The notes beneath the pieces were generated by a model that ran no database searches, was not told where the DNA came from, and was given only the letters and a program-made list of their open reading frames with translations. A stretch of DNA of 37,244 bases from Deltaproteobacteria bacterium. GTDB lineage: Bacteria; Bdellovibrionota_C; UBA2361; OMII01. Positions within the stretch are counted from its first letter, which is position 1. Each line of letters begins with the position of its first letter. Below, piece after piece: positions 26,105 through 32,738 of this stretch. The DNA lies in the NCBI GenBank assembly GCA_947467385.1, contig CANIHJ010000013.1, forward strand, positions 1 to 37,244, given 5' to 3'. A program made the translations under genes and the position numbers.

Positions 26105-26284
26105 GGGCGCCTGATGCGTAGGGCTCCCGAGTAGTGCCTGACGGCGCTAGCAGGCGTCTGAGTGGGCCTAATGGCCAGCAGGGGGCAGGCCTCTCTACAG
26201 AGCCTCTGCGGGAACGGCTAAAAACCCTAAGTCTAATAGTTTAAAGCGATTTTAAGGGCTCATTGCAAGCGCTCTCTAAAGTGA

Positions 26285-26304
26285 CCGATAAGTAAAGTTA
26301 TCGG
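26285..26304. other. Perfect hairpin between convergent genes
   Basis: CCGATAA (26285-26291) and TTATCGG (26298-26304) form a 7-bp stem with a 6-base loop 25 bases beyond the stop of the minus-strand dehydrogenase gene. It lacks a T-run in either direction, so it may stabilise a 3' end more than terminate. The rest of 26105-26329 shows only an imperfect inverted repeat near 26190-26215. Confidence 0.4.
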
Positions 26305-26329
26305 GCAATATGGGGATTGCCTCCAGGTA

Positions 26330-28816
26330 TCACCGCGCGCGCCTTACGCGCACTTCGAAGCTCTGCCTGGCAAGCCCGCCCAAGGGGTCGCGCACAGTAA
26401 CCGTGCCCGTGTGCCTGCCCAGGCCGTTAAAACGCTTCGTAACGACCTTTCCGAGCTTTTGGGAGCCGTCCGAGAAGCGCCATGCGACCGAAACGGGCTC
26501 GCCCTCTGGGTCGCGCGACGCCGAGGCATTGAGCGTAAAGACGTCGCGGCGCTTGGTGGGACGAACTGTAACTTTTGCGATCGGCTTTCGGTTGACGTAA
26601 ACGGCCGTGAAGGTCTTCTCGGGCCGCTCAACAACGAAGGTCCGGCCGAGCGTTTTTAGGCCATCCAGCCAGCGGTCGAAGCTGCGGCCAGCGTGGATCG
26701 GCGCGGCGGCGATCGTTTGACGGGCGCCGAGAATCGGCTGGATGGTCATCGGCGCGATGAGCTCTCGCTCGTCGTCTACATATGAGATGAGCGCGCCACG
26801 AGGGACGCTTGCGATCCTGTAGGTTGTGGTCTCAGGAGCAATGGAAACGCATTTCTGGTCAAGAAGCCCCTCCCCTGCAGATGCCCTCAAACAAAGTTCG
26901 TAGGAGGTGGTGTCGGTGTGCTCTGTAGGCTCAAACGAACCGGTCGACCCGAGGAACTCCCCAACGAGGTGCTCATGCAGGTTGTGCTTCTGAAGCAGCG
27001 ACCACGTTAGCTCCGAGGGTGAGCCATCGGGAGTGGTCGCGTGGCCTGAAAAGGAGAATCGTTGGCCGATGCGAAAGGTGGTTCCAGGCGCAGGGCTGTC
27101 GATGAACGCGATCGGCGGCGTTACTCCGGTCCGGATCGTAAGCGTGTCGCTTGAGGCAGCAAACGGCGATGTATTCTCGGAAACGGTGAGCCTTACTTCA
27201 AACGTCCCAACGCTCTGGAAGGTGTGTGTGGGGTTGAGAGCGGCTGAGGTTGGGGAGCCGTCGCCGAAATCCCAGCGCAGCGTGACGGGCTGGCCGTCGG
27301 GATCGTACGAGCCTATGCTTGAGAAGGAGACCGTTAGGGGGATGTCACCTGCTATCGGTGACGCAGATAGTTTCACAAGCGGGGAGGCGTTGTCCCCTTC
27401 GCGGTACTTGAAGCGCCTGACCTCACTCGTGCGGCTCTTAAGGTCGAGGTGCACGGCGTAAATGTTTGTGTCGGGGCCCGCAATAAGCTGAACTGCGCCG
27501 AGCGCCGATGTTTCCTGCGCGAAGTTGTGCCTCGTTGGGCGGCCCATCGCATCAAACGTGAGGTAGCGAATAAAGCGCTGGGCGTAGTCGGCATAAAAGA
27601 GAGCGCCGTGGTAGGCCTCCGGATACGACGAGCCGTGATAGAATGCGAGGCCCGTTATGGATGAGCCGAGATCCTTGCCGGTGCTGTCGTATGGGTGCCT
27701 GTAGTTGAAGAGCGGCTTCGTCACAAATGACTGCCCCTGTGCGTACCAAGCGTTGCAGGTCTCGGCCGTGGTGGGCGCGCTCTTAAAGCCGACCTGCCGA
27801 ATGTTCTCGTCGGCTGGGCCGTCCTGGGTTGCCTTGAGCAGGAAGCCCCCCTCGTAGCATGGCCAGCCGAAGTACGCCCCCTTTCCTACGTTTATCTCCT
27901 CGTAGTACGAGGTGCCCACGTCGCCGGAGTAGATCTGTCCGTTGTCGGGATTAAGGCCGATCCGGAACGGGTTGCGCATCCCGAGGTGCCACACCTTTGA
28001 GCGATTTGAGAACGGGTCGTTGCTGTCATAAAAGGGGTTACCCGGAACCCCTGCTCCCGTGTCGGGATTCACCCGCACCACGCGGCCGGACATGGCATCG
28101 AGATCGAGCGAACGGAACGAGAGGGTTGAGGGGCGATCGTAGCTCGATCCGTCACCAAACGACGCGATCAGGGTGCGATCGGGGCCGAAGAGGAGCGTTC
28201 CGGCGGTGTGCGAGGTGGCATCGCACGGTATGCAGTCGTTAACGGGAGTGCCTGCCATAGTGAGCCCGGTCATGCAGGATGCTTTTTCCGGGTCGTTTGG
28301 CTCTCCCGCAAGAACGGCCGGAGCCATGTTCTCAAGCGTTGAGTTTTTGCCGAGGATCACCTTCATGCTGCCGGGCAGGGCGACGTTGTAGTCCTGGGCC
28401 GCATCCGCGGTAAATCTCACCACCCGTAGGACGCGGGGATCGTGGGAATCCGGCGTGCTGCCCGGAGGATCGTACACGTATGAGAGGTAAATATAAGGCT
28501 TTTGGGGAAAATCGGGGTCAACAGCGATGCCGAGTAGGCCTCGGTCAGTTGCCTTGTTCACCTCGGCCGAGAGGTCAACGAACGGGGCCGCGAGAACCGA
28601 GCCGTTGCGCGCTATCTGCACAGGCCCATTTTTCAGGGCGAGGTAAATCCGCTCTCCCGGGGCAAACGCCATAGCCGTCGCAATCGGCAGACCCTTGAAC
28701 ACCACCTCCTCCGTGAAATTCTCTCCCGGGGCGAAGACGGACTGTGCCTGGGCGCTTGCGATGGGTGCGGCGAGCACAACCAGGGCTGATAAGATGAGGG
28801 AGCGGATGCGGAGCAT
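26330..28816 (-). CDS. Secreted PQQ-type sugar dehydrogenase with PKD domains
   Basis: The 828-residue product begins with a clear signal peptide (MLRIRSLILSALVVLAAPIA to SAQAQ) if the ATG at 28816 is used, with GGAGG ten bases upstream; the frame runs up to 28930 but those extra residues look untranslated. Residues about 30-475 match the glucose/sorbosone dehydrogenase beta-propeller (RGLLGIAVDPDFPQKPYIYL, TAGTLLFGPDRTLIASFGDG, WHLGMRNPFRIGLNPDNGQI, VGTSYYEEINVGKGAYFGWP). Then comes a PKD domain (about 482-570; SYDPDGQPVTLRWDFGDGS and NPTHTF) and a final PKD-like domain (about 742-826; RDPEGEPVSVAWRFSDGSQ). Such enzymes oxidise sugars in the periplasm or outside using PQQ; PKD domains aid binding to carbohydrate or surfaces. 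Neighbours do not suggest a pathway. Confidence 0.9.
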   Translation of the reverse strand: MLRIRSLILSALVVLAAPIASAQAQSVFAPGENFTEEVVFKGLPIATAMAFAPGERIYLALKNGPVQIARNGSVLAAPFVDLSAEVNKATDRGLLGIAVDPDFPQKPYIYLSYVYDPPGSTPDSHDPRVLRVVRFTADAAQDYNVALPGSMKVILGKNSTLENMAPAVLAGEPNDPEKASCMTGLTMAGTPVNDCIPCDATSHTAGTLLFGPDRTLIASFGDGSSYDRPSTLSFRSLDLDAMSGRVVRVNPDTGAGVPGNPFYDSNDPFSNRSKVWHLGMRNPFRIGLNPDNGQIYSGDVGTSYYEEINVGKGAYFGWPCYEGGFLLKATQDGPADENIRQVGFKSAPTTAETCNAWYAQGQSFVTKPLFNYRHPYDSTGKDLGSSITGLAFYHGSSYPEAYHGALFYADYAQRFIRYLTFDAMGRPTRHNFAQETSALGAVQLIAGPDTNIYAVHLDLKSRTSEVRRFKYREGDNASPLVKLSASPIAGDIPLTVSFSSIGSYDPDGQPVTLRWDFGDGSPTSAALNPTHTFQSVGTFEVRLTVSENTSPFAASSDTLTIRTGVTPPIAFIDSPAPGTTFRIGQRFSFSGHATTPDGSPSELTWSLLQKHNLHEHLVGEFLGSTGSFEPTEHTDTTSYELCLRASAGEGLLDQKCVSIAPETTTYRIASVPRGALISYVDDERELIAPMTIQPILGARQTIAAAPIHAGRSFDRWLDGLKTLGRTFVVERPEKTFTAVYVNRKPIAKVTVRPTKRRDVFTLNASASRDPEGEPVSVAWRFSDGSQKLGKVVTKRFNGLGRHTGTVTVRDPLGGLARQSFEVRVRRAR

Positions 28817-28971
28817 GTGGCGAGGCCTCCAAGCGAAAGTGGCGAGGGTGCACGGTCGCACATAGCTTCTGGGCGGCCATATGACCAACGTTAGGGGTTT
28901 TGCCGGAGTGATGTTGAGCGTGGGAATCATGTAGGGGCGTCAGGTGCCCCTGCTGCGTCGCGGCCTCAGGC

Positions 28972-29011
28972 AAAAAAAGGACCAGGTCGCCTGGTACGAG
29001 CGACCTGGTCC
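28972..29011 (-). terminator. Strong rho-independent terminator
   Basis: A perfect 12-bp stem GGACCAGGTCGC (28979-28990) / GCGACCTGGTCC (29000-29011) with a 9-base loop is followed, on the minus strand, by seven T (28978-28972). It ends a minus-strand transcript arriving from the FMN-reductase gene or from the structured RNA region between. Confidence 0.93.
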
Positions 29012-29160
29012 GTGACCGTATCTGGGAGCAATACGCCCTGAAGTAAACGTGATGGTGCAGTGTTTCCCTCAGAGCGACAGGCGCCGTGCGCCTTCACTCC
29101 CCTTGTCGCGCTCAGACGTTCCGCTGCTTCCGTTTTTTCAGGAAGTCGCTCCAAAGCCGA
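29012..29160 (-). ncRNA. Candidate structured non-coding RNA, family unknown
   Basis: The 166 bases between the FMN-reductase stop and the strong terminator fold, on the minus strand, into several helices. An 8-bp stem GGAGCGAC (29152-29145) / GTCGCTCT (29078-29071) encloses a hairpin directly next to its first strand (TTCC/GGAA, 29144-29128) and one directly next to its second (AGGCGC-ACG-GCGCCT, 29093-29079), like a junction. A further hairpin CGTAT/ATACG spans 29035-29017. The only minus-strand frame here (62 codons, from 29154) runs through the terminator stem and is not protein-like. I could not match it to 6S, SRP, tmRNA or RNase P. It could be an independent small RNA or a long 3' UTR. 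Ends are estimates. Confidence 0.35.
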
Positions 29161-29177
29161 TAGGATGGAGGTTTCCG

Positions 29178-29780
29178 CTACATTCCGTAGGGGAATTCCT
29201 TAAGGTTTATCTTTCCGCTTGAGCGCACATGCTGGAAAGCCTTGGCGTACTCAATGAGCATTTCAAGCGAGTAGTGGATCCGCTTCCGCAGCTCCGTATC
29301 GCGGTCATTGGCTGCAGTGGTGCCGTTTAGCATCCCTTCTGCCTCGCGCACGATGACGTGATCTGGGACGTAGACGAGGCGCGTGTTCTTGTACGAGGAC
29401 ATGCGCAGTTCGGCCACCGGGTAGCTGCCCCCTATTCCGCTTGAGACCGCCACGATCAGCGCCGGCTTGTGGCCAAGCTCGCTCGAGTCGCACAGCAGCA
29501 GAAAGTTCTTGAGGCCTGCCGGGACCATCCCGGACCACTCAGGTGACACGATGACAAAGCCATCGCTTTGCTGGAGGGTCTTCGAGATAGGCGACCACGC
29601 CGCTTCCCACTTGGGATCATCGCCCCACACCCCCTCGTCCCATAGGGGTAGGGGGTTCTTGGCCAGCGAAACCACGCCTGCCTCGACTTTGAGCGACGCA
29701 AGGTCAGAGGCCAAGTAGTTTGCGACTTTGTCTGATTGCGAGTTCTCGCGGTGACTGCCTGAGATGATGGTGATTTTCAT
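29178..29780 (-). CDS. NADPH-dependent FMN reductase family protein
   Basis: The 200-residue product has a flavodoxin-like fold: the phosphate-binding loop GSHRENSQSDKVANYLA (8-24), a PLWDEG segment, VIVSPEWSGMVPAGLKNFLL (about 76-95) carrying the usual P-E-(Y/W)-x-x-x-x-P flavin contact, and VAVSSGIGGSYPVAELR (about 110-126). Members reduce FMN or quinones using NAD(P)H. It is divergent from cysD with 139 bases between, so a link with sulfur assimilation (FMN reduction for desulfonation, as with SsuE) is possible but unproven. Transcription ends at the strong terminator beyond the structured RNA region. Confidence 0.92.
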   Translation of the reverse strand: MKITIISGSHRENSQSDKVANYLASDLASLKVEAGVVSLAKNPLPLWDEGVWGDDPKWEAAWSPISKTLQQSDGFVIVSPEWSGMVPAGLKNFLLLCDSSELGHKPALIVAVSSGIGGSYPVAELRMSSYKNTRLVYVPDHVIVREAEGMLNGTTAANDRDTELRKRIHYSLEMLIEYAKAFQHVRSSGKINLKEFPYGM

Positions 29781-29919: not shown

Positions 29920-30822
29920 ATGCATTTACCATCGCACCTTGAACAGCTAGAGGCTGAAAGTATCTATATCATGCGCGAGGTAGCGGCTCAGTTTGAGCGG
30001 CCCGTGCTCATGTATTCGGTGGGCAAGGACTCCTCCTGCCTGCTGCGCCTGGCTCAGAAGGCGTTCTACCCGGGCAAGATCCCTTTCACCGCGCTTCATG
30101 TCGACACCTCGTACAAGTTCGCCGAGATGTACGACTTTCGCGACCGCATGGCGAAGGAAGTTGGGCTCAACTTGATCGTTCACCGTAACGAGCCGGCGCT
30201 CAAGGACAACGCCAATCCCTATGAGCTTGGGACTCAGCGATGTTGTGCACTGCTCAAGACCGGCGCCCTGCTTGAGGCGCTCAAGAAGCACGAGTTCGAC
30301 GCCGCCATCGGCGGGGCCCGCCGTGAGGAGGAGCGAAGCCGGGCGAAGGAGCGTGTTTTCTCGTTCCGCGACAAGCACGGCCAGTGGGACCCCCGTTCGC
30401 AGCGGCCGGAGCTATGGAACCTCTACAACGGCAAGCTCGCCAAGGGCGAGTCGATGCGAGTATTCCCCCTGTCTAACTGGACTGAGCAGGACATCTGGAA
30501 CTACATCCTTCAGGAGGAGATCCCGATCGTCCCGCTCTATTACGCAAAGAAGCGCAAGGTCGTCGTGCGTGGCAACATGCTCATCCCAGTCATCGACTCT
30601 GACCCTCGCACCTACCAGGGCCACAAGGTAGAGGAAGTCCTGTGCCGCTACCGAAGCCTTGGGTGCTACCACTGCACCGGGGCGGTGCGCTCGGATGCGG
30701 ACACCCTTGAGAAGATAGTGGATGAGATGACGTCCGTTAAGACGTCTGAGCGCGCCACTCGAATTATTGACTTTGACACGGACGGCTCTATGGAGCTCAA
30801 GAAACGGGAGGGATACTTCTAA
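29920..30822 (+). CDS. cysD: Sulfate adenylyltransferase subunit 2
   Basis: CysD is the catalytic subunit of ATP sulfurylase, making adenylylsulfate from sulfate and ATP with energy from the GTPase CysN. The protein has 300 residues, the normal length. The PP-loop is SVGKDSS at 33-39 in the form typical of CysD; further family segments are [62 protein letters not shown] and [13 protein letters not shown]. The C-terminal half ends [11 protein letters not shown] as expected. Its stop overlaps the start of cysNC by one base (TAATG), so the two subunits are translationally coupled. The Shine-Dalgarno before 29920 is weak. Confidence 0.97.
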
Positions 30823-32738
30823 TGATGTCCCCAGCACCTGCAGCAGACCAGAACGGTTCTCACCTCTCAATCCTGCGCTTCTCGACCGCGGGTAGCGTCG
30901 ATGACGGCAAGTCAACCCTCATCGGGCGCCTCCTGCACGATTCGGGCAACGTCTATGAGGATCACCTCGCGGCTCTTGAGGCCACCGCAAAGAAGGCAGG
31001 CTCGACGCGTGTGTCGCTTGCGCTCCTGACCGACGGCCTCAAGGCCGAGCGTGAGCAGGGCATCACAATCGACGTCGCCTACCGGTACTTCGCCACGCCT
31101 CGCCGGCGCTTCATCTTAGCTGACTCTCCCGGGCATGTTCAGTACACGCGCAATATGGCCACCGGAGCGTCGACGGTAGACCTAACGATTATACTGGTCG
31201 ATGCGCGCACCGGCGTGATAGAGCAAACCAAGCGTCATGCGTTCATCACGGCCCTGCTGGGCGTCCCGCGCATCGTGCTTGCAGTAAACAAGATGGACCT
31301 CGTTGGCTACTCGCAGGACAGGTTCGAGGAGATCGTCGCGGACTTCACCGAGTTTTCGGCCAAGCTCGGCGTGCGCGAGATAAAGTTTATCCCGGTGTCC
31401 GCCCTCGAGGGCGACAACGTCGTCGAGCGAAGCGGCAAGATGCCGTGGTACGGCGGCGAGACGGTGCTTGAGCACCTTGAGAGCGTCTACATTGCGGGAG
31501 ACCAGAACCTGGTCGACTTCCGCTTTCCGGTGCAGTACGTGCTCAACCCAAACCAGAACTTCCGTGGGTATGCGGGAACGGTTGCGTCCGGGCTTGTCCG
31601 TGTTGGCGAGGAGGTTGTTGTTCTCCCGTCTCTGGCAAAGTCGAAGGTCAAAAGCATCGCTGTCCCGGGCAAGGGTGTGAAGGGAGCGCAGATTCCGGAG
31701 GCCACGAGCAGGGACGCGGTAGTTATTCAGCTTGAGCACCAAATCGACATCTCGCGCGGCGACATGATCGTGCGGCCCAAGAACGTGCCTCGAGTCACGA
31801 CCCAGTTCGACGCCATGCTGGTGTGGATGGGCGATGTCCCGATGGACACGGCGACCCGCTACATAATCCGCCACACGGCGCGCGAATCAAAGGCGTACAT
31901 CAGCGGCATCGACTACAAGATCGACATCCATACCCTTGGCAGGATGGACCCTGCCCCGTTGGCGTCCAACGAGATCGGCCGAGTCTCAATCTCAACAACC
32001 ACGCCGCTCTTTGTCGACCCGTACCAGAAGAATCGCTCGACCGGTAACTTTATCCTGATCGATCCCGTATCGTTCTTGACGGTCGGGGCCGGCATGATAA
32101 TCGATCGTGGGCGCTCGGAAGGTGCGGAGCTTGAGGACGGCGAGGCTGCCCCCAACCTGCACCACGAAGTTGCCCTGGTGACGCAGCGCGAGCGTGAGCT
32201 TCGCAGCGGGCGCAAGGCGGTCACCGTGTGGCTGACGGGGCTGTCCGGTTCGGGCAAGTCGACTATAGCCAAGGCCGTTGAGCGAAGCATTTTTGACGAC
32301 GGTGTCCCGGTCTACTTCGTTGACGGGGACAATCTCCGCACAGGCCTTAACAAGGGGCTTGGTTTTTCGCGTGAGGATCGCTCCGAGAACCTGCGCCGGG
32401 CTGCTGAGGTTGCTGCGCTCATGAACGAGGCTGGCGTAACCGTCATATGCGCCTTTATCTCGCCGTATGCGGCGGATCGTGAGCGCTCGCGCGAGATCAT
32501 CGGCAAGGAGCGCTTCCTTGAGGTGTACCTAAGCACGCCGGTATCAGTATGCGAGGAGCGAGATCCGCATGGCCTCTACAGGAAGGCTCGTGCGGGAGAG
32601 ATTAAAAACTTTACGGGAGTTAATGACCCGTATGAGGTTCCGGAGAGTCCTGCCCTAAGGATAGATACTGCAGCAAAATCGGTTGAGAACAGCGTTGAAG
32701 AGGTAGTGGCGCTTGTTGTGAACCGGGCCTCTCTCTAG
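30822..32738 (+). CDS. cysNC: Sulfate adenylyltransferase GTPase subunit fused to APS kinase
   Basis: This 638-residue protein joins CysN (about 1-455) and CysC (about 464-638), giving adenylylsulfate and then PAPS. The GTPase domain has GSVDDGKS (24-31), DSPGHVQY (101-108) and NKMD (156-159), followed by EF-Tu-like beta domains. The kinase domain has Walker A GLSGSGKST at 473-481, DGDNLR (501-506), GFSREDR and the phospho-Ser motif FISPYAADR with Ser547. Both halves look intact. It overlaps cysD by one base; an ATG three bases later is an alternative start. The PAPS made could feed cysteine synthesis or sulfotransferases, neither of which is in the window. Its TAG shares a CTAG with the opposing gene's stop. 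Confidence 0.97.
   Translation: MMSPAPAADQNGSHLSILRFSTAGSVDDGKSTLIGRLLHDSGNVYEDHLAALEATAKKAGSTRVSLALLTDGLKAEREQGITIDVAYRYFATPRRRFILADSPGHVQYTRNMATGASTVDLTIILVDARTGVIEQTKRHAFITALLGVPRIVLAVNKMDLVGYSQDRFEEIVADFTEFSAKLGVREIKFIPVSALEGDNVVERSGKMPWYGGETVLEHLESVYIAGDQNLVDFRFPVQYVLNPNQNFRGYAGTVASGLVRVGEEVVVLPSLAKSKVKSIAVPGKGVKGAQIPEATSRDAVVIQLEHQIDISRGDMIVRPKNVPRVTTQFDAMLVWMGDVPMDTATRYIIRHTARESKAYISGIDYKIDIHTLGRMDPAPLASNEIGRVSISTTTPLFVDPYQKNRSTGNFILIDPVSFLTVGAGMIIDRGRSEGAELEDGEAAPNLHHEVALVTQRERELRSGRKAVTVWLTGLSGSGKSTIAKAVERSIFDDGVPVYFVDGDNLRTGLNKGLGFSREDRSENLRRAAEVAALMNEAGVTVICAFISPYAADRERSREIIGKERFLEVYLSTPVSVCEERDPHGLYRKARAGEIKNFTGVNDPYEVPESPALRIDTAAKSVENSVEEVVALVVNRASL

Follow-up and report, generated by a model that had tools for sequence, protein, structure and literature searches.

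A candidate structured 3'-UTR RNA downstream of an FMN reductase gene in two sister genomes of an uncultured deltaproteobacterial genus

The DNA analysed here, called the window throughout, is a stretch of 37,244 nucleotides from a Deltaproteobacteria bacterium (GCA_947467385.1, contig CANIHJ010000013.1). On its minus strand, a gene for an NADPH-dependent FMN reductase (PF03358; Pfam E = 1.9e-27) occupies positions 29178-29780 and lies immediately 5' of the candidate RNA. The whole element, a 3' UTR or candidate small RNA, runs on the same strand from the reductase stop codon to the end of a T run (29177 to 28972). The next gene, again on the minus strand (26330-28816), encodes a glucose/sorbosone dehydrogenase with PKD domains; its start was placed at 28816, the ATG that precedes a signal-peptide-like stretch, and the mechanical ORF starts at 28930. 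FMN reductase matches were found in 8 of the 11 other genomes of the genus, one of the eight (G005) being partial and at a contig end. Divergent from the reductase gene, at 29920-32738, lie a CysD-like gene and then a fused CysN-CysC gene (GTPase plus APS kinase), and the same CysD-like/CysN-CysC order is also visible 5' of the FMN reductase in G002, G011, G010 and G006.

From the stop codon to the terminator stem there are exactly 166 bases, and all of the features described here are on the minus strand. In the predicted fold, an upstream hairpin of the form CTTCC..GGAAG (29127-29145) is followed by an 8-bp closing stem, the 5' arm of which (29094-29101) pairs with a 3' arm, TTGCTCCC, at 29024-29031. 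Hairpin 1 (29079-29093), with 6 bp and a 3-base loop, directly abuts the closing stem, and hairpin 2 (29034-29076), with 10 bp formed by 29076-29067 and 29043-29034, is enclosed by it. A 22-base linker (29012-29033), within which the 3' arm of the closing stem falls, connects hairpin 2 to an intrinsic terminator identified by a terminator scan, consisting of a hairpin with a 12-13 bp stem (28979-29011) and a run of seven T's (28972-28978). The most conserved part of the element is a 25-base core, GGGCGTATTGCTCCCAGATACGGTC (29014-29038), made up of the last five bases of hairpin 2 and 20 bases of the linker. An initial annotation of the window had proposed an 8-bp closing stem, two inner hairpins, a further hairpin, a 166-base spacer and a terminator, and all of these were present as described.

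A counterpart of the element was found in another genome of the genus, G011, on contig JAFMJG010000012.1, where the same layout follows the FMN reductase gene, including, as judged from sequence and fold, a hairpin of terminator type and a T run on the same strand. In a tree of eight FMN-reductase proteins, those of the window and G011 were sisters, with moderate support (81/86). Hairpin 2 starts 101 bases after the stop codon in the window and 97 bases after it in G011, and the linker has the same length, 22 bases, in both genomes, with 16 of the 22 identical. The core is identical at 21 of 25 positions although only 29 of 79 fourfold-degenerate sites of the adjacent gene agree between the two genomes, which argues that the core is under constraint. 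A simple terminator scan of the window listed two sites, compared with 1.2 +/- 1.0 in shuffles; the same scan did not list the G011 terminator because the scan allows loops of up to 8 and the one predicted there has 9.

The pairing of hairpin 2 was retained in G011 at all 10 of its 10 pairs, two of which differ between the genomes at both bases and three at one base, and all 9 of the 9 modelled terminator pairs were retained, five of them changed on both sides; these counts lean towards structure because the alignment was picked among several trimmings for having both helices in register. Among shuffles of the upstream sequence, 35 of 5000 for the window and 33 of 5000 for G011 could pair over 10 bp with the strand that ends in GGGCG. 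There was little conservation between the two genomes 5' of hairpin 2. A hairpin is predicted in G011 at the place of hairpin 1, separated from hairpin 2 by three bases rather than the two seen in the window, and its sequence is unrelated and unalignable. The GAAGCAG of the upstream hairpin (29130-29124) recurs in G011, at 44 bases past the stop codon compared with 47 in the window, a 7-base match that could be due to chance. As for the closing stem, G011 folded without its terminator gave a 3-bp GGG/CCC stem around both hairpins, and folded with its terminator gave a 6-bp stem in a different register. Alignment of the homologous region brought out paired changes in hairpin 2 and the terminator, but the 8-bp closing stem, the mainstay of the initial annotation, was not fully kept in G011.

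It had also been proposed that the order of the helices was too regular for chance. With the terminator included, the segment 28960-29190 was more stable than 200 of 200 shuffles on the minus strand (z -3.3), and the plus strand likewise did better than 200 of 200 (z -2.4). The junction alone, a region selected because it folds, gave z -4.3 and beat 500 of 500 shuffles. The 166 bases without the terminator were weakly unusual (z -1.9), with 20 of 500 shuffles folding equally well, and the equivalent stretch of G011 was not unusual (z -0.1), 222 of 500 shuffles being as good; the two G011 hairpins alone gave z -3.5 and were matched by one of 500 shuffles. Because the terminator-free segment is only weakly unusual and the G011 stretch is not unusual, fold stability alone is insufficient to show that the order is too regular for chance, and the case is carried by the comparison with the sister genome, a source of evidence that is positive but thin.

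A search of the whole window against Rfam at gathering scores gave no match, and the earlier claim that the region belongs to no known RNA family was upheld. When the E-value was relaxed for the window stretch and for G011, only sub-threshold matches were obtained, all of them short of membership in SorY, suhB/mmgR or Atu_C4. The G011 stretch resembles SorY (RF02651, singlet oxygen resistance RNA Y) in having a hairpin, a CAUA..UCCC linker and a GGCCGAG-type terminator (E = 0.0098), but its 23.3 bits are far under the gathering score of 111 bits, and for the window SorY did not appear even at E-values of up to 10. The resemblance is likely to be chance or convergence. G011 is also like suhB/mmgR (RF00519), an sRNA family of rhizobial origin, with which it shares a GGGCG-arm hairpin, a CUCCC linker and a terminator (16.9 bits, E = 0.38); the gathering score, however, is 41 bits, and the window was without a suhB match. 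The window in turn shares with Atu_C4 (RF02499) the layout of short hairpin, linker and terminator, but at 17.1 bits (E = 0.51) against a gathering score of 80 bits the element is not a member of that family.

To survey the distribution of the element, the core was searched as the pattern GGGCGYATWGYTCCCAGAYACGGTC, which was written from the window and G011 sequences themselves. With up to three mismatches, it was found in 2 of the 12 genus genomes, the window's and G011; there was no match in the other ten, or in any control. A covariance model, R1, was built from the same two sequences, and it found these two genomes only, both among the 28 genomes of the order and, with stricter filters, among 45 genomes of the class that include those 28. 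In G002 and G006 the pair of FMN reductase and dehydrogenase genes is present with a short spacer and the element is absent. Given that R1 finds two genomes only and that the gene pair occurs in G002 and G006 without the element, the element would be recent, easily lost, or elsewhere too diverged for R1 to detect. A DNA similarity search of 57 genomes gave matches at E <= 1 in 33 of them, none better than E 0.0015 besides the element itself. The matches listed were short, and among them those in G011 (query 1-23), G010 and G006 lay at the end of the FMN-reductase gene.

A degenerate core pattern was also run over two contig collections. It had no match in the viral collection and matched 23 loci in the genome collection, one of which was judged to be the G011 contig (L033). 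On rescoring with R1 alongside the window and other loci, L033 gave 98.1 bits and the other 22 loci gave at most 23.2 bits (L028, E 0.0023; L035, E 0.014), E-values that are flattered because the loci had been preselected for a core match. The 22 loci, which belong to Clostridia, Flavobacteriales and further unrelated groups, were treated as presumed chance or coding matches. Conservation holds for the core and the hairpin 2 pairing in one sister genome, but it reaches that one other genome only.

The window contains a second feature, a 28-bp dif-like site at 26281-26308, GTGACCGATAA-GTAAAG-TTATCGGGCAA, which lies 3' of the dehydrogenase gene and about 2.7 kb from the element. The site is a non-coding palindrome of 11-6-11 bp with 12 G+C in 28 positions, compared with a G+C fraction of 0.57-0.63 in the window. 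Its 20-base core, with up to one mismatch, was found exactly once in each of 9 of the 12 genus genomes and had no control match; in 8 of the 9 it follows the dehydrogenase gene at a distance of no more than about 1 kb. In G010 a dehydrogenase match was not found and the core follows the FMN reductase. The pattern missed G006, where a variant occupies the same locus, and had no match in G004 or G005. A sustained GC-skew reversal was absent from the window itself. One G001 contig, of 174 kb, had a skew of +0.091 to the left of the dif-like site and -0.059 to the right, with the cumulative maximum 21 kb from the site. The octamer motif GGGNAGGG occurred in the G001 contig four times to the left of the site and once to the right, and its complement occurred not at all to the left and five times to the right.

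PMC2731167 describes dif sites as non-coding 28-bp sequences of low G+C that lie near the cumulative GC-skew maximum and consist of two inverted 11-mers separated by 6 bp, and it puts the third quartile of their distances from that maximum at 21,445.5 bp. The dif-like site has these features, the skew part having been tested in the one G001 contig. Matches to Xer-like recombinases were found in four of five genomes, the exception being the incomplete G000, with none of the five over the XerD cut-off. All 14 control genomes also matched, four of them over the cut-off, so the Xer model is not specific below it. On these sequence features, 26281-26308 is a candidate chromosomal dif site. If so, the window would lie near the replication terminus, and for that reason the site is perhaps more useful than the RNA. 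Right beside the dif-like site in G010 there is a CRISPR-like array (locus L012, 2214 to beyond 2766 on the FMN-reductase-forward strand). The array starts about 110 bases past the FMN-reductase stop codon, and its 26-base repeat unit, TTCATCCCCGCACACGCGGGGAACAC, is present 10 times without mismatch in the locus.

We think it probable that the element is a genuine regulatory RNA, restricted to this lineage and ordinary in kind. The suggestion of a small RNA or regulatory 3' UTR stays the best, though tentative, reading; the more specific form of it, a lineage-specific 3'-UTR RNA that probably acts as a small base-pairing RNA, is one in which we have moderate confidence. The stretch would then form a structured 3' UTR on the FMN-reductase mRNA, carrying in the lineage of the window and G011 a conserved hairpin, then the conserved 22-base linker, then the intrinsic terminator. 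A discrete RNA may arise by cleavage of this mRNA or by transcription from a promoter of its own. Base pairing would be through the linker, the CUCCC/UUCCC stretch of which could cover ribosome-binding sites, and the hairpin and terminator would shield the RNA from decay. In bacterial RNAs a linker just before the terminator stem often serves for base pairing or binds a chaperone.

Small RNAs derived from the 3' ends of mRNAs sit past the stop codon, share the mRNA's intrinsic terminator and have a conserved segment preceding that terminator. The element is like them in its 3'-UTR position and its common intrinsic terminator, as far as position and sequence go, and in having a segment conserved beyond neutral expectation (21/25 vs 29/79, in two genomes); it is unlike them in being a candidate known from the sequence of two genomes only. 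These bacterial RNAs are reviewed as a class in PMC9438474. None of the short ORFs listed spans the core in both genomes. A promoter-like site was not found in either the window's genome or G011. Possible targets were sought in two genomes with the complement of 13 core bases, allowing up to one mismatch, and with the reversed pattern as a control. There was no clear enrichment of complementary sites, with 4 sites compared with 6 for the control in G000 and 15 compared with 9 in G011, the element itself being counted in each genome. The ORFs around the other complementary hits, at 3 loci in G000 and 14 in G011, had no common relatives at E 1e-5.

That no target or promoter was found also fits a plain 3' UTR, in which the hairpins and terminator merely end the FMN-reductase transcript and block exonucleases without acting on other genes, as would be expected of an element directly past a stop codon with a 13-bp terminator stem. 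A terminator or stability hairpin, however, needs structure rather than a particular linker sequence, yet it is the core, mostly linker, that is conserved best, and we regard a plain 3' UTR as a possible but rather unlikely explanation. A bolder model, which we consider doubtful, is that the element founds a new lineage-specific regulatory RNA family of this uncultured genus, in which the closing stem would mask the conserved linker and so switch the RNA between silent and active states. In the predicted folds the CUCCC of the linker is paired in the window, and CCAGAC is paired in one fold of G011.

The remaining explanations are weaker. GC-rich spacer hairpins and a terminator might match one relative by coincidence, and the number of shuffles that fold as well without the terminator (20 of 500 for the window, 222 of 500 for G011) would be in keeping with this. 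But the 21/25 core identity at the same locus, set against a neutral identity of 37%, has a P of about 1.6e-6 at one position by a simple binomial, and local alignment of the two intergenic stretches scored 34, far above the 16.6 +/- 2.1 (maximum 23) of 60 shuffles; chance is already disfavoured, and we judge it quite improbable. Another proposal is that the element serves the downstream dehydrogenase gene as a leader or attenuator, with an aptamer-like fold that decides whether the terminator forms. The terminator is on the same strand about 160 bases ahead of the dehydrogenase start that we infer, the order of parts is riboswitch-like, and the RNAs of the window and G011 both fold into a junction just 5' of the terminator. 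Against this, strong full-length dehydrogenase matches occur in 9 of the 12 genus genomes (G005 has weak ones only) and the element in 2 of the 12, and visual inspection suggested an alternative pairing in the window, between 29150-29143 and the left arm of the terminator, for which inspection of G011 showed no counterpart. Because other genomes of the genus have the dehydrogenase but lack the element, a leader role is less likely, and we rate it very improbable. Least probable of all is that the core is a conserved protein-binding DNA site near the putative replication terminus and not an RNA, since, for all that the dif-like site is about 2.7 kb away, the core is non-palindromic and is flanked at fixed spacing by the terminator and by a hairpin that shows paired changes.

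In sum, a lineage-specific 3'-UTR RNA is the reading that we prefer for the element. If it is transcribed, the RNA would lie beyond the current Rfam library, its sister copy being in an assembled environmental genome. It would also be an example of how fast such RNAs arise, found as it is in a single sister pair among the genus genomes examined.
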